NCBI GenBank assembly: GCA_900315715.1
Contig: ONAH01000136.1
Span: 1-47,266, forward strand
Direction: 5' to 3'
DNA length: 47,266 nt
Source of the DNA: an uncultured Eubacteriales bacterium
Lineage (GTDB): Bacteria; Bacillota; Clostridia; Oscillospirales; Acutalibacteraceae
The notes beneath the pieces are model-generated. The model ran no database searches. It saw only the letters and a list, made by a program, of their open reading frames with translations, and had not been told where the DNA came from. The position numbers and the translations under genes were made by a program. Positions 1-33,028 of the stretch are shown here, piece after piece (positions within the stretch are counted from its first letter, which is position 1; the number at the start of each line of letters is the position of its first letter).

Positions 1-3000
1 CCGACAAAAACATCATATTTTACAGGCGAAGCATTAAACACAGCAGGTATGAAAGTCACAGCTTCTTATAACAACGGAGCTACTAAGGATGTAACAGCCC
101 AAGCAACAGTTTCTGCACCCGATATGACTACGGCAGGAACAAAAGCAGTAACAGCCTCTTTCGGCGGACAAACAGTAACATTTAACATTACGATAAAAGA
201 GGTAACAGCAGTATCTCTTACGATAAATAAAGTCCCGAACAAATTTGAATATTATGTAGGAGAAGAATTAGACAATACCGGAATAGACGTAATAGCTATG
301 TTCAGCAATTCTACCACACGAAATGTATCATTGAGTATAACTTGTACACCGCCGGATATGACAACAGCGGGAGAAAAGAATGTAACGGTACACTTCGGAG
401 GACAGAGTGCACAGTATAAGATTACAGTATCAGAAATAATTCCCACAGCATTAAACATCAGTGTGCTGCCAACTAAGGTAGAGTATTACATCGGTGAAAG
501 TTTTACAACAAACGGAATTGCAATTTCGGCTTCGTTTAACAACGGTACAAGAAAAGACGTTACAAACAGTGTTACATACTCAGCACCGGATATGACCTCA
601 GAGGGCATAAAAGAGGTTACGGTATCATATAACGGAGTAACCACAAGCTTTGTAATAAATGTAAAATCTGCAACACTAACAGAAATAAAAGTCACAAAGA
701 TGCCCGATAAGCTTGATTATTATACAGGTGAAACCTTTAGTTCAAACGGAATGACAGTAATGGCAACATACAGTGACGGTGCATCAAAGGACGTATCATC
801 AGAAGCAGTATGTTCACAGCCGGATATGAGTACAGCAGGAAAAAAGGCAGTAGAAGTATATTTTGCAGGACAGAGTGCAGATATATATATTAATGTAACA
901 GAAGCAGTAGCAACAGGATTGACGATAACACAGTATCCGACCAAGCTTACATATTTTGTAGGAGATACTTTTGATCCAAGCGGAATAATTGTAACAGCAA
1001 CATTCAATGACGGAAGTTCAAGAGATGTAACAAATAGTGTAAGTTACTCACAGCCTGATATGAATGTTTCGGGAACGAAAGAGATAATAGTAACATTTGG
1101 AGATGTTAAAGCGTCATTTAATATAGAGGCTTTAGATGTTAATGTTACAGAAATCGTAATAACAAAGCTTCCCGACAAGCTTGAGTATAATGTCGGGGAT
1201 GAGTTTACATACAGCGGAATAGTTGTTACAGCGAATTTCAGTGACGGGACAAGCTCAGATGTTACAAGTTCTGTAACGGTATCACAACCCGATATGACAC
1301 TGCCCGGAACAAGACCTGTTACAGTTTCATACGGCGGAAAGACAGCGGATTATAGTATTAGTATAACCGACAGTATGATAAAGACAATAAGTATATCTGT
1401 TGCACATGAACCCGACAAAACATACTTCAATGTTGGAGAAGATTTTACTTCCGAAGGAATAATTGTGACAGCAGTATATTCAGACGGCAGTACAAAAGAC
1501 GTAACAGACAGCGTAACGATTTTCCAGCCTGACATGAATACAGCGGGTTCATATGATGTATTATTGTCATATGACGGACTAAGTACTACATATAAAGTAT
1601 ATGTTATTGCCGCAGAACTAACCTCTATAACAGTTGTACAGCCACCTGAAAAGACAGAGTATTATCTGGGAGAAGATTTCATCTCAGACGGAATGAAGGT
1701 TACGGCAACATTTAGTGACGGAAGTACAATAGATGTAAGTGACAGTGTGACTTATTCGCAGCCAGATATGTCAACGGCGGGCACAAAACAAATAACAGTA
1801 ACGTTCTCAGATAAGAGTACGGAAATTAGCATAAACGTACTTGAGATTTCATTGACGGGACTAACGGTGTCAAGCTATCCTGAGAAGCTAAGCTATACAA
1901 CAGGAGATATATTTGTGAAAGACGGATTGACGGTAACTGCATCATATAGTGACGGCAGCACAAGAGACGTAACAGAAATCATAATAATCTCAGAACCGGA
2001 TATGACAACAGCGGGTACAAAGCAGATCACATTAACATACGGCGATCAATCGACTGTATTTGAAATAAATGTAACAGAAGCTGTATTAAGTTCGGTTGGA
2101 GTGACAAGTTATCCAGCAAAGACAGAGTATGGTATAGGAGATAAACTTGACACGACAGGGTTGGTAGTAACAGTAAAATACGATAACGGGGCAACAAAGG
2201 ATATAACATCAGAAGCGGTAATTACAGAACCCGATATGAGTACATTAGGTACTAAGACAGTGAGCATAGAATATAATGGGTTAACAGCATCATTTGAGAT
2301 AACCGTTGCCGAAGTAACTTTAGTGGGTATACAACTTCAAGGCTACCCTACAAAGCGTGATTATCTTACAGATGAAGTGTTAATATATACCGGCTTATCG
2401 GTAGTAGCAACAATGAGTAACGGAAACATAACGTATATAACAAATAAAGCTCAAATAATTAATCCTGATATGAGTACGCCCGGTACTAAGGAAGTAATAA
2501 TAGAATACGAAGGAATGCAAACATCTTTTGAGATAACAGTAACAGAGAGAACGCTTCAGAATATACAGGTTGTACCACCCAGTAAGAAAGAGTATGTAAT
2601 AGGTGAGCAGTTAGATGAATTCTCAATGTCAGTAATAGCATATTACAGTGGAGGAAAACAGAAAGACGTAAAAGATCAGGTACAGATCACAGGTTTTGAC
2701 AGTACAACGCCCGGAACAAAAACAGTAGTGGTAAAATTCGGTGAATTTGAATCAAGTTTTACGGTAGAAGTATTGGCAGTAGAGGCAATATCATTAAATG
2801 TAACTCCGCCTTCAAAGACAGAGTATCAAACAGGTGACAACTTGGATACAACCGGAATGATAGTATATGCGAATTACAACAATAATACACAGAAAGAGGT
2901 AACAGATCAAGTTGAGATAACAGGTTTTGACAGCAGTAAAGCAGGAACAGTGAATGTAACGGTAGTATATGCCGCATTAAGTTCGGTATTTACTGTAACG
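1..3000 (+). repeat. Thirteen in-frame tandem repeats, mostly 234 bp each
   Basis: The codons for the PDM motif fall at 118, 352, 586, 820, 1054, 1288, 1528, 1762, 1996, 2230 and 2464. The spacing is exactly 234 bp except for one 240-bp step (1288 to 1528). Two further, more diverged units follow. The units differ in DNA sequence but keep their length, which fits selection on a fixed 78-residue fold rather than very recent expansion. Confidence 0.9.
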
Positions 3001-3225
3001 GTAAAAGAAAAAGAAAAAACTGTTATGGTGGGTGACTCTAACGGAGACGGAAGAATAACAGCAAAGGATTCGCTAAATGTACTTCGTTATTCAATAGGCT
3101 TGTGGAAAAATGTTTCAGCAGATATCATAGCAGCGTTAGATGTAGATAGAAACGGTAAAGTAACAGCGTCAGATGCACTGAGAATTCAGAGATATGCTAT
3201 TGGGCTGGTAAAAACATTAATTTAG
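1..3225 (+). CDS. Multi-Ig-like (Big_3) repeat protein with C-terminal dockerin, 5' partial
   Basis: The reading frame is open from base 1, so the gene starts upstream of the window; the Met at 49 is an internal residue. The visible part holds 13 copies of a bacterial Ig-like module of about 78 residues. Each copy has a YxxGE start, a DVT core and a PDMxTxG turn; in the last two copies the turn has drifted to GFDS. After a short Lys/Glu linker comes a type I dockerin of about 65 residues with two calcium loops (DSNGDG and DVDRNG), each followed by a helix ending RYxIGL. Dockerins bind cohesins on scaffoldins, so this is likely an exported stalk or adhesin docked to a cell-surface or cellulosome-like complex. 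No catalytic domain is visible; one could lie in the missing N-terminus. The signal peptide is outside the window. Confidence 0.9.
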   Translation, partial: PTKTSYFTGEALNTAGMKVTASYNNGATKDVTAQATVSAPDMTTAGTKAVTASFGGQTVTFNITIKEVTAVSLTINKVPNKFEYYVGEELDNTGIDVIAMFSNSTTRNVSLSITCTPPDMTTAGEKNVTVHFGGQSAQYKITVSEIIPTALNISVLPTKVEYYIGESFTTNGIAISASFNNGTRKDVTNSVTYSAPDMTSEGIKEVTVSYNGVTTSFVINVKSATLTEIKVTKMPDKLDYYTGETFSSNGMTVMATYSDGASKDVSSEAVCSQPDMSTAGKKAVEVYFAGQSADIYINVTEAVATGLTITQYPTKLTYFVGDTFDPSGIIVTATFNDGSSRDVTNSVSYSQPDMNVSGTKEIIVTFGDVKASFNIEALDVNVTEIVITKLPDKLEYNVGDEFTYSGIVVTANFSDGTSSDVTSSVTVSQPDMTLPGTRPVTVSYGGKTADYSISITDSMIKTISISVAHEPDKTYFNVGEDFTSEGIIVTAVYSDGSTKDVTDSVTIFQPDMNTAGSYDVLLSYDGLSTTYKVYVIAAELTSITVVQPPEKTEYYLGEDFISDGMKVTATFSDGSTIDVSDSVTYSQPDMSTAGTKQITVTFSDKSTEISINVLEISLTGLTVSSYPEKLSYTTGDIFVKDGLTVTASYSDGSTRDVTEIIIISEPDMTTAGTKQITLTYGDQSTVFEINVTEAVLSSVGVTSYPAKTEYGIGDKLDTTGLVVTVKYDNGATKDITSEAVITEPDMSTLGTKTVSIEYNGLTASFEITVAEVTLVGIQLQGYPTKRDYLTDEVLIYTGLSVVATMSNGNITYITNKAQIINPDMSTPGTKEVIIEYEGMQTSFEITVTERTLQNIQVVPPSKKEYVIGEQLDEFSMSVIAYYSGGKQKDVKDQVQITGFDSTTPGTKTVVVKFGEFESSFTVEVLAVEAISLNVTPPSKTEYQTGDNLDTTGMIVYANYNNNTQKEVTDQVEITGFDSSKAGTVNVTVVYAALSSVFTVTVKEKEKTVMVGDSNGDGRITAKDSLNVLRYSIGLWKNVSADIIAALDVDRNGKVTASDALRIQRYAIGLVKTLI

Positions 3226-3238
3226 GAGTGATATTATA

Positions 3239-4837
3239 ATGAAAATAACATTTCTAGGAGCTGCACACGAAGTTACAGGTTCATGTACACTTATTGAGAC
3301 AGGGAACGTAAAGTTCCTTGTTGACTGCGGAATGGAACAGGGACCTGATATATATGAAAATTGCGAATTACCGATATTACCGTCGGACATAGATTTTGTA
3401 CTTCTAACACATGCACATATAGACCATTCAGGAAAGCTTCCTCTGTTGTCAAAGCAAGGATTTTGCGGAAGTATCTATACGACATTTGCCACAACACGAT
3501 TATGTCGGATAATGTTAGAGGACTCCGCACATATTCAGGAAATGGAAGCAGAGTGGAAGAACAGAAAATCAAAGCGTTCGGGTGGAATAGAATATACCCC
3601 AATGTACACTACCACAGACGCAGAAAACTGTCTTAAACTGTTTCATCCGTGCAGGTATGAAAAACACATAAATATATCAGAAAATATCACCGCAAGATTT
3701 ATTGACGCAGGTCATCTGTTAGGTTCTGCATCAATAGAGATAACGATAGCAGAGGGCGATACAAAAAAAGTAATATTGTTTTCGGGAGATGTTGGAAATA
3801 TTGACAGACCGCTGATAAAGAATCCAACTAAACCGGAGTATGCTGATTATGTAGTGGTAGAATCAACATACGGCAACAGACTACATGGAGCAAGAGCAGA
3901 CTACGCAAGCCAGCTTGCAACCATAATCTATGAAACTTTCGAAAAAGGCGGAAATGTGATAATACCTTCATTTGCAGTAGGAAGAACACAGGAAATGCTG
4001 TATTTGATACGAGAGATAAAGGACAGCGGATATCTAAAAAAATTCGGAAACTTTCCGGTATGGATAGATAGTCCATTAGCTGTTGAGGCAACAGAGATAT
4101 ACAGTGAGGATATGTATGATTATTGTGACAGTGAAACGCTTGCATTATTGAAATCAGGTGTTGATCCGATAAAATTTCCGAATCTCAATCTTGCGATAAC
4201 AAGTGACGATTCAATAGCAATAAATAACGATCCAACACCAAAGGTAATACTATCGGCCAGCGGAATGTGTGAGGCAGGAAGAATCAGACACCATTTAAAA
4301 CACAATCTGTGGAGATCGGAATCGACAATCTTATTTGTAGGATATCAGGCAGAGGGAACACTTGGCAGAACGATAATAGACGGTGCAAAGAGAGTAAAGC
4401 TGTTCGGAGAAGAAATATCAGTAAATGCAAGAATAGCTTTGATGGACGGAATAAGCGGTCATGCAGACATGAAAATGTTGCTTGATTGGCTGGGTAATCT
4501 TCAGAACAGACCGGAGATGGTATTTGTAAATCATGGCGGTGATACGGTATGTGATGATTTTGCACAAACTATCGTAAGAAAGCTGTCATTTCCCGCTGCA
4601 GCACCATATACTGGAGCGTCATACGAATTAACTGAATTCAAATGTATAACTCACGGCAATACAGTTAAACTAAAGACTAAGGTAAATAAGAAAGCAAAAG
4701 CTGTATATGACAGATTGGTACAAGCAGGAAAAAGACTACTTGAGGTTATCGAACAGAATAAGGGACTTGCAAATAAGGATCTTGCAAAATTTGCCGATCA
4801 AATTAACGATCTGTGCAACAAGTGGGAGAGGAAATAA
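3239..4837 (+). CDS. MBL-fold metallohydrolase with beta-CASP and RNA-specificity domains
   Basis: This is a predicted zinc-dependent RNA-processing nuclease of the CPSF-73/YSH1-like beta-CASP family. The metallo-beta-lactamase motif HAHIDH lies at residues 58-63, a further metal-ligand His at about 159 (DAGHLLGSA) and an Asp at about 184 (SGDVGN). The beta-CASP cap occupies roughly 200-380, and the RMMBL segment with SGHAD and VNHGG follows. A Lys-rich tail of about 60 residues, outside the core fold, closes the 532-residue protein. The start has AGGAG ten bases upstream. It lies 13 bp behind the dockerin gene and may be co-transcribed with it. The exact substrate cannot be told; a general hydrolase role is the alternative. 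Confidence 0.88.
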   Translation: MKITFLGAAHEVTGSCTLIETGNVKFLVDCGMEQGPDIYENCELPILPSDIDFVLLTHAHIDHSGKLPLLSKQGFCGSIYTTFATTRLCRIMLEDSAHIQEMEAEWKNRKSKRSGGIEYTPMYTTTDAENCLKLFHPCRYEKHINISENITARFIDAGHLLGSASIEITIAEGDTKKVILFSGDVGNIDRPLIKNPTKPEYADYVVVESTYGNRLHGARADYASQLATIIYETFEKGGNVIIPSFAVGRTQEMLYLIREIKDSGYLKKFGNFPVWIDSPLAVEATEIYSEDMYDYCDSETLALLKSGVDPIKFPNLNLAITSDDSIAINNDPTPKVILSASGMCEAGRIRHHLKHNLWRSESTILFVGYQAEGTLGRTIIDGAKRVKLFGEEISVNARIALMDGISGHADMKMLLDWLGNLQNRPEMVFVNHGGDTVCDDFAQTIVRKLSFPAAAPYTGASYELTEFKCITHGNTVKLKTKVNKKAKAVYDRLVQAGKRLLEVIEQNKGLANKDLAKFADQINDLCNKWERK

Positions 4838-29703: not shown

Positions 29704-30630
29704 ATGGATAAAAACTTGATACCTGTATTTAATAGTTTTTCTGAGAGATTTTGTAAGGCACTCAAAACAAAAGACGAATTAATAAGCGAAATACGAATAC
29801 GCAGTAATAAGCCGGTTATAGTATATATTTCAAATATTCCTTATATAATAACAGAAGACGGAGAGCTAATTCCGGCAGACAGACATACGCTTTTGAACGA
29901 TGAGTGTATAAAGTTCTCATCAAGGGAGATAAAAAATGCATTTTCACGCATTTGTGAATACTCAGTATATAAATACCAGACAGATATAAACAACGGATTT
30001 GTTACGGTATGCGGAGGGCACAGGATAGGAATATGCGGAACAGCCGTGATAAGTGACAACAGGGTAAAAGCGGTGTCGGATATATCGTCACTGAATATTC
30101 GTATTGCGCACGAGTTTATCGGTTGCAGTAATGAGCTTTTAAGCAGAACAGGAATATCCTCAGGAATTTTGATATGCGGAGTGCCGTCATCGGGAAAAAC
30201 AACTCTATTGCGTGATATCGGACGAACTTTGTCGTCTGATATGATGAAGAAGGTCACAATAGCAGACGAAAGAGGAGAGATAACGGCACGCTATGCAGGC
30301 GAATACTGCTATGATATAGGTTTGTGTGATATATATAGCGGATATCCAAAGAGCAAGGCAATAATAGACGCTATTCGAACGATGTCGCCCGAATATATAA
30401 TATGTGACGAACTTACAGGAACAGATGTGCAAAGTGTAATATATACTTTGAATTACGGAGTTAAACTTATAGCATCACTGCACTGTGACAGTGCGGAGAG
30501 TGCGACAAGCAATAATTCGGTACGAACGCTTATAGATACAAACGCATTTGGAAAGATAATATTTCTTGACAGTAATGCTCCTTCAAAAATAAACAGGATA
30601 GTAACGAAGGAGGAGTTGTATGCTGATTAA
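29704..30630 (+). CDS. spoIIIAA: SpoIIIAA, stage III sporulation ATPase
   Basis: SpoIIIAA is a secretion-type ATPase thought to power the SpoIIIA-SpoIIQ channel between mother cell and forespore. The Walker A motif GVPSSGKTT is at 159-167, followed by VTIADERGEI, YIICDELTG (Walker B) and LIASLHCDS. The length is 308 residues. A sigma-E-like element (ATATT at 29659 and TATAAG at 29680) lies upstream but matches poorly. AAGGA is 13 bases before the ATG, an unusually long spacing. It overlaps spoIIIAB by 11 bases. Confidence 0.93.
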   Translation: MDKNLIPVFNSFSERFCKALKTKDELISEIRIRSNKPVIVYISNIPYIITEDGELIPADRHTLLNDECIKFSSREIKNAFSRICEYSVYKYQTDINNGFVTVCGGHRIGICGTAVISDNRVKAVSDISSLNIRIAHEFIGCSNELLSRTGISSGILICGVPSSGKTTLLRDIGRTLSSDMMKKVTIADERGEITARYAGEYCYDIGLCDIYSGYPKSKAIIDAIRTMSPEYIICDELTGTDVQSVIYTLNYGVKLIASLHCDSAESATSNNSVRTLIDTNAFGKIIFLDSNAPSKINRIVTKEELYAD

Positions 30631-31126
30631 AGTATTAGGTGCAGTAATGATAATGACATCAGGAGTGTTGATAGGTGTAAGTTTAAAGCAGAGACTTTCA
30701 AATCATGTAGAAAGATTAAAATCAATAAAAGAGTTTCTACTGTATGTAAAACGGAAACTCAGCTATGATATGCCGGGATTATCTGATATGTTTTCCGAGT
30801 ATGAGGGAGATACGGCAGGCGGAATGATAGAAAGTATAGCTTGCCTGCTTGAGCAGGGAAACAGCATTGTAGAGAGTGTTAGAAATGGAGTTGAACTTTC
30901 TGACGTAACAGACATACTATTTACCGGAGAGAGAAACTATATTGAGAATGTTTTCATACAGCTTGGCAGCAGTGACCGTGAAAGTCAGATTATCATGATA
31001 GATAATGCAGTGGATCGTATTGAAGGGATGATAGAAGAAGCTATACTGGAGGATGAAAAAAAATCAAAAATAGTGATGTCGATATCAGTATATTCAGGAG
31101 CGGTTTTGGCAATAATATTGTTATAA
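30620..31126 (+). CDS. spoIIIAB: SpoIIIAB, stage III sporulation protein
   Basis: This 168-residue protein has an N-terminal membrane helix (about 3-22), a helical cytoplasmic region resembling secretion-system GspF-like proteins, and a C-terminal hydrophobic end (about 152-168). The family ending SGAVLAIILL and the gene position after spoIIIAA identify it. It begins inside spoIIIAA behind AAGGAGG and is part of the feeding-channel complex built in the mother cell. Confidence 0.88.
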   Translation: MLIKVLGAVMIMTSGVLIGVSLKQRLSNHVERLKSIKEFLLYVKRKLSYDMPGLSDMFSEYEGDTAGGMIESIACLLEQGNSIVESVRNGVELSDVTDILFTGERNYIENVFIQLGSSDRESQIIMIDNAVDRIEGMIEEAILEDEKKSKIVMSISVYSGAVLAIILL

Positions 31127-31142
31127 AAGAGGGGATTTGTAA

Positions 31143-31337
31143 ATGGGTATAGACTTACTGTTTAAAATATCTGCAATAGGAATGATAGTAGCTGTATTGA
31201 CGCAGGTGTTGTCAAAAGCAGGCAGGGATGACCAAGCTATGTTGACAGCCCTTGCAGGATTGGTAATAGTTCTTACGATGGTGGTTCAACAGATAAGTTC
31301 GTTGTTTACCGATTTAAAATCGATTTTTGGTCTATAA
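31143..31337 (+). CDS. spoIIIAC: SpoIIIAC, small stage III sporulation membrane protein
   Basis: This 64-residue protein has two hydrophobic helices. The pattern LFKISAIGMIVAVLTQVLSKAGRD is typical of SpoIIIAC, and the second helix (about 33-52) carries ALAGLVIVLTMV. It lies 16 bp after spoIIIAB behind GAGGGGA and two bases before spoIIIAD, in the normal order. Confidence 0.93.
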   Translation: MGIDLLFKISAIGMIVAVLTQVLSKAGRDDQAMLTALAGLVIVLTMVVQQISSLFTDLKSIFGL

Positions 31338-31339
31338 AG

Positions 31340-31723
31340 ATGAATATAGTATCAATATGTGTTTTGGGAGTTTTTGCGGTAATTACAAGCATAGGGCTAA
31401 GGAAACACAGCCCTGAAACATCATCATTAATGCTGATATCATGTGCAGTAATGATAATAGTAATGTACCTTCCGACAGTAGATGTCATATTTAATTCAAT
31501 AAGGTCGCTGACAGAAAGAAGCACCCTTAACAGCGAATACATAAATATACTAATAAAATCCCTTGGGATATGCTACATTACTCAGATATCGGTAAATATT
31601 TGTAAGGAAAACGGCAGTATGTCAGTTGCTTCACAATTAGAGATAGTGGGAAAACTACTGATACTACTTCCAGCAGTACCGATACTGAATGATATAATAG
31701 AGATAGTAAATAAATTCATATAA
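31340..31723 (+). CDS. spoIIIAD: SpoIIIAD, stage III sporulation membrane protein
   Basis: This 127-residue protein has about three or four hydrophobic helices. It carries the family features IGLRKHSPETSSLMLISCAV and IKSLGICYITQ followed by NICKENG. It starts two bases after spoIIIAC with no clear ribosome site, so it is probably coupled to that gene. In complete operons spoIIIAE, AF, AG and AH follow; here none does, and the next gene has its own promoter 28 bp later. Confidence 0.92.
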   Translation: MNIVSICVLGVFAVITSIGLRKHSPETSSLMLISCAVMIIVMYLPTVDVIFNSIRSLTERSTLNSEYINILIKSLGICYITQISVNICKENGSMSVASQLEIVGKLLILLPAVPILNDIIEIVNKFI

Positions 31724-31750: not shown

Positions 31751-31779
31751 TTGACGGCAATATGGGAAAATGGTAGAAT
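31751..31779 (+). promoter_or_regulatory. Strong sigma-A promoter of the duplicated cysteine-peptidase-like gene
   Basis: TTGACG (31751-31756), a 17-bp spacer and TAGAAT (31774-31779) preceded by an extended TGG. It shows that the downstream gene is a separate vegetative unit rather than part of the spoIIIA operon. Confidence 0.75.
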
Positions 31780-31814
31780 ATAGAATAAAAATATTTTACC
31801 GAGGAAGATAGAGA

Positions 31815-32975
31815 ATGCCTGAAAATATAGATGTAAGATTTTATATGGAGAATAGACACCCGAAAAATAAGCTGTTAGACGGTGTAGGATCTGCACTTCA
31901 TTCTATGTGTGTGACAAAATCAATCTCTTGGGCAGAAGCATATGATCTCCTGATAAAAGCATCAGGAGAGTTAGGTCAGATGCCTCAGAACAAAAAAGCA
32001 ATACATTTAATGCTTAGTAGAAGCGGATTCTATTTACAGTCGGGAGCGATGGCAAATTACAGTATATCAGAGCTTATAGAGCTGTTTGATTCAATTTTCA
32101 GTGACGGAGAGGTAGTAATACTGAACTTATCACGAAGTGAACAAAATGGTCGATACATACCAATTGTACCGATTTATGAAAATGAGAAGGTACGATATGT
32201 TTTGAAATATCCTTTTAATGTTGTTAATAAAGCCAGTGTTGAGGAGGTGTGGATTTCTTGGAAGGACGGCCTTGATCACAGTATAATGCCAAGAAGGAAG
32301 CGAAAAACAAAACCCAAAACGCAAATAAACAATACAAAAGATAATGCGACTTTAAAAGTGTATAATGAAAATCCGAATGATAATCTTATAGGGGATTGTG
32401 TAGTACGGGCGGTTGCAGGTGTGTTTGGAATCAGCTGGGCAGAAGCAGTAGAAAAGCTTGCTAAGGCACAAGATTACGCAGGAACAATAATCAACAATAA
32501 CAGTAACATAGAAGCCCTCTTGAGAAAAGAGGGCTTCCAGGAATTTGAACCAATAAAAAGGAATGGAAAGATACTGACAGGCGCACAATTCTGTGATTTG
32601 ATACACGATATGTTTCAAGAGGGAACAAAAATCTTTGCGTATGCAGGAGTGTATCATGTAGTTGCAATTCTTGTATTTGAGAATGATTACAAGATAGTAG
32701 ATACATGGGACAGTACCAATGAAAAGATTATAAAATACTGGGCAAAGTTTCCCGAAGTAAGATCAAAGAGAAAAGAGCGTAAACAAGAACCTAAAAAAGA
32801 TGATAAGAAAGAAGTAATTCTATCACTTGACATTGGTACAAGAATAAAGCATGATACATTAGGAGAAGGGGAAATCATTGAAATAGGAAAAGGTATTGTG
32901 ACGATAAACTTTACAAGCGGTATGCAGAAGAAATTATCCGAACAGTGGGTACTTGCAAATTGTAGCGCTGTATAA
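31815..32975 (+). CDS. Duplicated papain-like (C39-like) protein with C-terminal Tudor-like domain
   Basis: I do not recognise a named family for the whole protein (386 residues). The second half has a cysteine-peptidase-like layout: Cys195 in GDCVVRAV, His281 in YHVVAIL, and Asp296 or Asp299 in VDTWD. Residues 36-72 align without gaps to 205-241 (SISWAEAYDLL against GISWAEAVEKL; SGF against EGF), so the first half is a copy. In it the Cys position is Ser26 and the His position is Ile115, so it is probably inactive. A Lys-rich stretch (160-178) joins the halves. Residues 339-380 (IGTRIKHDTLGEGEIIEIG) resemble the Tudor-like domain at the end of PcrA/UvrD. No signal peptide is seen, so it is probably cytoplasmic. 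It has its own promoter and a GAGGAAG ribosome site. Confidence 0.75.
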   Translation: MPENIDVRFYMENRHPKNKLLDGVGSALHSMCVTKSISWAEAYDLLIKASGELGQMPQNKKAIHLMLSRSGFYLQSGAMANYSISELIELFDSIFSDGEVVILNLSRSEQNGRYIPIVPIYENEKVRYVLKYPFNVVNKASVEEVWISWKDGLDHSIMPRRKRKTKPKTQINNTKDNATLKVYNENPNDNLIGDCVVRAVAGVFGISWAEAVEKLAKAQDYAGTIINNNSNIEALLRKEGFQEFEPIKRNGKILTGAQFCDLIHDMFQEGTKIFAYAGVYHVVAILVFENDYKIVDTWDSTNEKIIKYWAKFPEVRSKRKERKQEPKKDDKKEVILSLDIGTRIKHDTLGEGEIIEIGKGIVTINFTSGMQKKLSEQWVLANCSAV

Positions 32976-32995: not shown

Positions 32996-33028
32996 GCCCG
33001 AAAGCGGTGTAGGCAACCTCTTTCGGGC
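32996..33028. terminator. Stem-loop between convergent genes, GCCCGAAAG family
   Basis: A 13-bp stem with one mismatch (32996-33008 with 33016-33028) has a 7-base loop. Flanking T runs are weak on both strands. The stem sequence is nearly the same as that of the terminator at 46606. Confidence 0.65.

Follow-up and report, generated by a model that had tools for sequence, protein, structure and literature searches.

In the 47,266 nt stretch of DNA analysed here (the window), from a gut bacterium related to Ruminococcus, a gene encoding a 386 aa protein, ORF386, has spoIIIAD on one side and a convergent rluA-family gene on the other, and so occupies the place where a preliminary description of the sequence expected spoIIIAE. 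The locus raises the questions of whether this position is meaningful and what kind of protein ORF386 is.

Genetic context of ORF386

The gene does follow spoIIIAD, as the preliminary description implied, but spoIIIAE is not missing from the genome. It was found on another contig (G000:C78:1228-2154), where spoIIIAE, spoIIIAF and spoIIIAG are intact together. The spoIIIA operon is thus split, with spoIIIAA, spoIIIAB and spoIIIAD at 29704-31723 of the window and spoIIIAE, spoIIIAF, spoIIIAG and a probable spoIIIAH at 979-4019 of locus L075. The same split is seen in the other genomes of the genus wherever the arrangement is visible, and the two blocks are 33 kb apart on a single contig of G010. 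The nearest relative, G012 (SpoIIIAA 91% identical), carries the spoIIIAA-spoIIIAD block, but where the window has the ORF386 gene it has an unrelated sequence of 392 bp. Because the intergenic sequences of the window and G012 are unrelated, the ends of the insertion cannot be placed.

Location directly 3' of spoIIIAD could suggest a sporulation protein that replaces SpoIIIAE. This reading is refuted by the separate spoIIIAE operon and retains virtually no probability. In addition, ORF386 has no match to the Spore_III_AE profile, G012 has the spoIIIAA-spoIIIAD block without ORF386, and ORF386 relatives in other genomes adjoin unrelated genes. The position of ORF386 after spoIIIAD is coincidental and has no functional meaning. 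In the Ruminococcus-type loci the neighbours of the ORF386-family gene differ every time, and both there and in the window the gene is solitary.

In two loci of distant relatives (L184 and L185), the ORF386-family gene is part of a conserved cluster with genes for a STAND-like ATPase, a WYL protein and an HD protein. The cluster of STAND-like ATPase, 901 aa WYL protein, HD protein and ORF386 relative spans 2399-7137 of L184 and 2-12993 of L216, from a Christensenellaceae and a Clostridia genome, and the STAND-like ATPase is very large, reaching 2742 aa in one locus. The cluster looks like an undescribed conflict system; comparison with PADLOC gave generic or weak matches only, and the cluster WYL protein is absent from the genome of the window.

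Two further arrangements were seen in the loci compared. A PNKP-type RNA-repair ligase/kinase/phosphatase adjoins one relative (L178, 7218-9791) and was not seen at the others. On contig C52 of the window genome (L212, 3537-6191), a single row of genes, all consistent in strand, encodes a YbjN-like protein, a subunit of a ClpP-type protease and a VirD4-like ATPase whose start seems to coincide with that of its ATPase domain. Three further gut Clostridia (L184, L185 and L214) also have the ClpP-VirD4 combination, which is unusual in bringing together a peptidase chamber and an ATPase resembling a DNA pump. A functional link between ORF386 and the ClpP- and VirD4-like genes that lie beside two relatives was considered and rejected: the window genome has such genes elsewhere, G012 has a VirD4-like gene without ORF386, and Ruminococcus callidus has an ORF386 relative with no VirD4-like gene close by.

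Domain organisation of ORF386

Features of the ORF386 gene and its surroundings are listed in Table 1. A promoter-like site found by comparison with consensus sequences suggests that it has a promoter of its own, although such a match does not by itself show function.

Table 1. Coordinates of ORF386, its domains and adjacent elements in the window.
Feature	Position	Strand	Basis
Promoter-like site TTGACG-17-TAGAAT, TG preceding the second hexamer	31751..31779	+	Consensus scan, 10/12 matches; consensus match alone
GAGGAA, probable ribosome binding site of ORF386	31801..31806	+	Sequence
ORF386, 386 aa: dead papain-like half, live papain-like half, Tudor tail	31815..32975	+	Full-length relatives, 48-57% identity
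N-terminal papain-like domain, residues ~9-150, triad lost (Ser26; no His at 113-115; ~Tyr132)	31839..32264	+	
Basic linker, residues ~151-177, Lys/Arg-rich	32265..32345	+	Sequence; pLDDT dip
C-terminal papain-like domain, residues 178-313, phrog_3754 member, triad intact	32346..32753	+	
Codon of Cys195, predicted nucleophile, DC motif	32397..32399	+	Invariant
Codon of His281, predicted general base	32655..32657	+	Invariant
Codon of Asp296, predicted third triad residue, DTWDS motif	32700..32702	+	Invariant
Charged flexible linker, residues 314-335	32754..32819	+	Low pLDDT, mean 54 at residues 321-330
Tudor domain, PcrA/UvrD/CarD type, residues 336-386 (His346, Lys372, Leu374 = PcrA RNA-polymerase-contact positions)	32820..32972	+	Contact residues from PMC5397179
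13-nt inverted repeat, 7-nt loop, between ORF386 and the convergent rluA-family gene	32996..33028	.	Possible terminator, weak T-run; absent from terminator-scan list

ORF386 is almost certainly composed of a dead papain-like half, a live papain-like half and a Tudor-like tail. Each of the three domains is of a known kind, while their combination as a whole is not covered by the profile libraries. No sequence match to ORF386 was detected in Pfam, the PDB or PADLOC (0 PADLOC families), and the NCBIfam search gave only a chance-level match, a weak one to a Pol IV model at residues 318-367, which presumably reflects the Tudor tail. In the open-licence literature, no description was found of a pseudo-peptidase joined to a live papain-like enzyme and a PcrA/UvrD Tudor tail. 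The preliminary description had called the protein undescribed and cytoplasmic. The former agrees with the lack of any Pfam, NCBIfam or PADLOC family or open-licence paper for ORF386, and the latter with its sequence, in which neither a signal peptide nor a membrane segment is apparent.

The C-terminal half and its phage relatives

Residues 180-310 match phrog_3754 (E 5e-11, positions 8-142 of the 145-position profile). At the sequence level the C-terminal half is related to this phage family, from which it is probably descended. No exception to Cys195, His281 or Asp296 was seen among the 88 distinct single-domain relatives or in the 10 full-length members. The scan pattern used to collect the 88 sequences contained the Cys, and so only the invariance of the His, which was in no search pattern, and of the Asp is unbiased in that set. 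The preliminary description had listed Cys195, His281 and either Asp296 or Asp299 as retained. The first three stand, but Asp299, the second Asp of the DTWDS motif, is less strictly conserved (Asp in 77/88 single-domain relatives), which identifies Asp296 as the third member of the triad. It is very probable that the C-terminal half is catalytically live.

By tblastn, single-domain proteins were found in two large replicons as well as 11 phage records, and a profile-guided scan of viral contigs returned 475 related stretches, 80 of which were kept. Scans of viral and genome contigs with single sequences recovered no ORF386 relatives because the peptides chosen are not conserved. In the phage loci, 3-4 conserved, uncharacterised genes on the same strand lie 3' of the single-domain gene, and a small gene for a helix-turn-helix-like, perhaps sigma-like, protein together with lysis genes is often found 5' of it. 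At 1879-3447 of L135 and in similar viral loci, the conserved row consists of genes for a transmembrane protein, a small helix-turn-helix-like (perhaps sigma-like) protein and the papain-like protein, followed by three genes predicting a ~144 aa low-complexity protein, a 70 aa protein and a ~283 aa Gly-rich protein. The predicted fold and triad of ORF386 provide a handle on phrog_3754, a family seen in hundreds of viral contigs and of no known function.

The N-terminal half is a degenerate copy

The gapless alignment of residues 36-72 with 205-241 at an offset of 169, noted in the preliminary description, contains 15 identities in 37 positions; none of 300 shuffles of the whole protein reached 15 (maximum 12). 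The Smith-Waterman score of the N-terminal against the C-terminal half is 80, and the mean for shuffled sequences is 28, with 0/2000 reaching 80. A profile built from relatives of the C-terminal half only, with ORF386 left out, also finds the N-terminal half (E ~2e-6). With full-length relatives included, profile-profile comparison of the two halves aligned 130 columns (E 3.5e-8), indicating that the entire domain was duplicated and not a single motif. The N-terminal half is likewise a remote homologue of the phrog_3754 relatives (HMM E ~2e-6, hhalign E 4e-9, with profiles built here), but it does not keep their catalytic residues.

That one copy is dead was borne out: the triad retained in the C-terminal half is lost from the N-terminal half, with Ser26 and Ile115 at the Cys and His positions as had been claimed. 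The His position of ORF386 falls at residue 113, 114 or 115 (R, Y or I), according to the alignment used, and is never His, and the equivalent of Asp296 is ~Tyr132. The nucleophile position is Ser or Thr in all 7 Ruminococcus-type members, ORF386 included. In three more distant members, a Cys (KSCAAL) may persist near this position and the His position is Met in 3/3, and in L182 a His is found beside the aligned position but without the Cys. The full triad is therefore missing from the N-terminal half throughout the family, and that of the C-terminal half is invariant.

Predicted structure

An AlphaFold2 model made with the full-length alignment had a mean pLDDT of 90.6 and a pTM of 0.79. Four helices followed by four strands are predicted in each half, at 23-35, 39-53, 60-69 and 84-94 (helices) and 100-106, 114-122, 125-132 and 141-148 (strands) in the N-terminal half, and at 195-204, 208-218, 229-238 and 256-266 and 272-277, 282-288, 291-296 and 304-311, respectively, in the C-terminal half. 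The equal order and spacing of these elements in a papain-like topology is in line with the two halves having the same fold. The model is also consistent with clustering of the triad, as Cys195 starts helix 195-204, His281 directly precedes strand 282-288 and Asp296 ends strand 291-296, which are papain-type positions. Since the phage sequences in the alignment have a single domain, homologous to the C-terminal half, the fold of the N-terminal half derives essentially from ten orthologs; in a model made from an alignment without N-half relatives this half was not resolved, and the N-terminal half of that model was not used.

Structural matches in the PDB were to YopQ (Z 7.8, model residues 25-153), AvrPphB (Z 6.4, residues 3-150), BpJOS (6.4) and SpvD (6.3) for the N-terminal half, and to Josephin-2 (Z 7.6), staphopain (7.2) and the ComA C39 peptidase (6.9) for the C-terminal half, where papain-like chains lead the matches. 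Among the other papain-fold neighbours are the deamidase OspI (Z 6.5) and phytochelatin synthase (Z 5.8). The preliminary description pointed to the C39, C58 and transglutaminase-like clans. Chains of the C39 and C58 types resemble ORF386 in fold (Z 6-7), and for all three clans there is no sequence match in Pfam or the PDB, a lack that does not speak against membership. The Z values are middling, and it is the recurrence of one superfamily for both predicted halves that persuades. Values of Z < 8 permit a papain-like fold for the model without telling a peptidase from a deamidase, transglutaminase or acyltransferase.

The C-terminal Tudor-like domain

In the AlphaFold2 model, residues 336-386 form a small β-barrel-like domain. 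Resemblance of the C-terminus to the PcrA/UvrD Tudor domain had been suggested from sequence, and the matches of family profiles and the predicted fold now agree on it over these residues. With E values up to 1 allowed, PF21196 (PcrA_UvrD_tudor) matches 7 of 9 family tails, the best at 7.8e-5, but not the ORF386 tail on its own, and CarD_TRCF_RID (PF02559) matches 3/9. A profile of the family tails matches the UvrD Tudor domain in the PDB (E 1.1e-5). The model of the tail superimposes on 7egs_B, the C-terminal domain of UvrD solved in complex with the lobe of RNA polymerase (49 of 55 residues, Z 7.3, rmsd 1.5), and on 5dma (Z 6.7, rmsd 1.4, 48 aligned), with a Foldseek probability of 1.00 for the PcrA/UvrD type. 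Ribosomal proteins are also among the matches to the fold.

PcrA binds RNA polymerase through its Tudor domain, and PcrA-type Tudor domains also bind UvrB (PMC8318588). Mutation of H681, W684, K712 or L714 of PcrA severely reduced binding to RNA polymerase, and the PcrA C-terminal domain did not bind DNA (PMC5397179). The equivalents in ORF386 are His346, Leu349, Lys372 and Leu374, so that three of the four contact positions are retained and Leu349 replaces the Trp. Across nine aligned tails these positions are His in 9/9, Phe or Tyr in 8/9 (the exception being Leu349 of ORF386), Lys or Arg in 9/9, and Leu, Phe or Met in 9/9. The strict form of the helicase interaction motif, which is gripped by PcrA (PMC8318588), is absent from RpoB of the host, in which a degenerate form, AAGEVL, is present. 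By analogy with PcrA, there is about an even chance that the tail binds RNA polymerase or another PcrA-type partner.

Distribution of the ORF386 family

Nine full-length chromosomal relatives were found in reference genomes, all with the order degenerate half, live half, tail, the tail being present in 8 of the 9. Six closer relatives, in Ruminococcus callidus ATCC 27760 and five Oscillospiraceae or Ruminococcus genome bins, share 48-57% identity with ORF386 over nearly the whole length. The other three, in one Christensenellaceae bin and two Clostridia bins, are ~30-34% identical. The sole full-length relative without a Tudor tail is that in L186 (5956-6915), where the frame ends just past the live half. 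The L186 sequence is the divergent relative from G885, the alignment of which first revealed the full-length family. The number of relatives is a lower bound because the two search patterns were narrow, one of them containing Asp296. Recurrence of the three-part design in at least 8 other genomes of gut Clostridia establishes ORF386 as a member of a real family.

Within the genus, the ORF386 gene is present in 1 of 22 genomes, and a full-length copy was found in 2 of 396 relatives. A search of 119 relatives of R. callidus yielded no further full-length member, and N-half matches in G496 and G647 were rejected as relatives as they fall on unrelated genes. The picture is one of a mobile accessory gene that is patchily distributed among gut Clostridia, as expected for an accessory, conflict-related gene and not for a housekeeping gene.

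Possible functions of ORF386

The reading preferred here, held tentatively and at somewhat less than an even chance, is that ORF386 is a phage-derived cytosolic cysteine peptidase with a dead half that has a binding or regulatory role and a tail that tethers the enzyme to RNA polymerase. Duplication or fusion of a catalytic half acquired from phage, the direction of transfer being presumed to be from phage to host, would have given rise to the two papain-like halves. The C-terminal half may act as a cysteine peptidase or isopeptidase via Cys195-His281-Asp296, as suggested by its predicted fold and residues, and the N-terminal half, with its fold kept and its triad lost, would most likely be a substrate-binding or regulatory pseudo-peptidase beside it. 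On the basis of homology to PcrA/UvrD and the retained contact residues, the tail most likely docks the enzyme on the β lobe of RNA polymerase, or on a partner with a similar hairpin such as UvrB. Once docked, the enzyme could have as its targets proteins that come into contact with the transcription machinery, such as factors made by phages or those of stalled complexes; that ORF386 is a peptidase with such a transcription-linked target is possible but on balance doubtful. Against the preferred reading are the degenerate RpoB motif of the host, the failure of the ORF386 tail alone to match PF21196, the Leu349 in place of an aromatic residue, and the tailless relative in L186. It is a good deal more speculative, and improbable at present, that ORF386 represents a class of bacterial proteases docked on RNA polymerase, in which a captured phage enzyme with a live and a dead half and a PcrA-type Tudor tether cleaves proteins engaging the transcription machinery, such as phage-made polymerase modifiers. 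If this is true, bacteria would have a new means of controlling transcription, or of defence, in a peptidase anchored to their RNA polymerase.

Several other explanations were weighed against the preferred reading. The live half could be a papain-fold enzyme of another kind (a glutamine deamidase, transglutaminase or acyltransferase) whose reaction modifies a partner reached via the Tudor tail, as the triad alone cannot separate these reactions and OspI and phytochelatin synthase are among the fold neighbours. However, the peptidases and deubiquitinases (Josephin, staphopain and ComA) are more numerous and slightly closer, differences that are within error, and a non-peptidase is considered rather unlikely. 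A different partner for the tail, namely a UvrB-like repair factor, the ribosome or nucleic acid, would place ORF386 in repair or translation quality control. Binding of UvrB by PcrA-type domains (PMC8318588), the lack of the strict RpoB motif in the host and the ribosomal proteins among the fold matches are compatible with this, but the PcrA/UvrD Tudor domain is the nearest by both sequence and Foldseek probability and the PcrA domain did not bind DNA (PMC5397179), leaving such a partner conceivable though not favoured.

Involvement in phage defence or conflict is also unlikely on present evidence, though far from negligible. ORF386 would then be one arm of a system, a peptidase effector freed or activated on infection and otherwise restrained by the dead half. 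The clusters of STAND-like ATPase, 901 aa WYL protein and HD protein in L184 and L185, the patchy spread, the variable neighbours in Ruminococcus and the phage homologues of the live half all fit with such a role. On the other side, ORF386 itself has no PADLOC match and the cluster only generic or weak ones, the gene stands alone in the window, as it does in the other Ruminococcus-type loci, and the window genome lacks the WYL protein of the cluster. The phage family of the live half could recall a decaying, functionless prophage remnant, but the frame is intact, full-length relatives of 48-57% identity are found in other species and share the invariant triad as well as a conserved dead half and tail, and there are no phage genes around ORF386 within the window. 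This explanation is largely refuted and very improbable.

Comparison with known systems

The set of Cys, His and Asp motifs in the C-terminal half is shared with the single-domain relatives of phrog_3754, which are phage proteins of ~125-145 aa such as that of Butyrivibrio virus Ceridwen [QHJ73765.1]. In contrast to ORF386, the phage proteins have neither the dead half nor the Tudor tail, and their genes are part of a conserved gene row of the late or lysis-adjacent type. With the papain-like peptidases, including Josephin deubiquitinases, the C39 peptidases of ComA and PCAT1, staphopain and enzymes of the AvrPphB/YopT type, ORF386 shares the predicted fold, the order Cys-His-Asp and the location of the Cys at the start of a helix, but it has no detectable sequence similarity to any such chain in the PDB. 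It further differs from them in being cytosolic, with no transporter fusion, and in the addition of a dead copy and a Tudor tail.

At the level of the family profile and the predicted fold, the tail resembles the PcrA/UvrD Tudor domain (PF21196) and the CarD/Mfd RID (PF02559), and most of the contact residues are retained. However, in PcrA, UvrD, CarD and Mfd the domain belongs to a helicase or transcription factor, whereas in ORF386 it is attached to a papain-like enzyme and has Leu349 in place of the conserved aromatic residue. An enzyme with a PcrA-type Tudor tail has a parallel in DinX, a mycobacterial Y-family polymerase in which the tail is flanked by disordered regions (PMC6511836), though DinX is a polymerase and ORF386 is peptidase-like.
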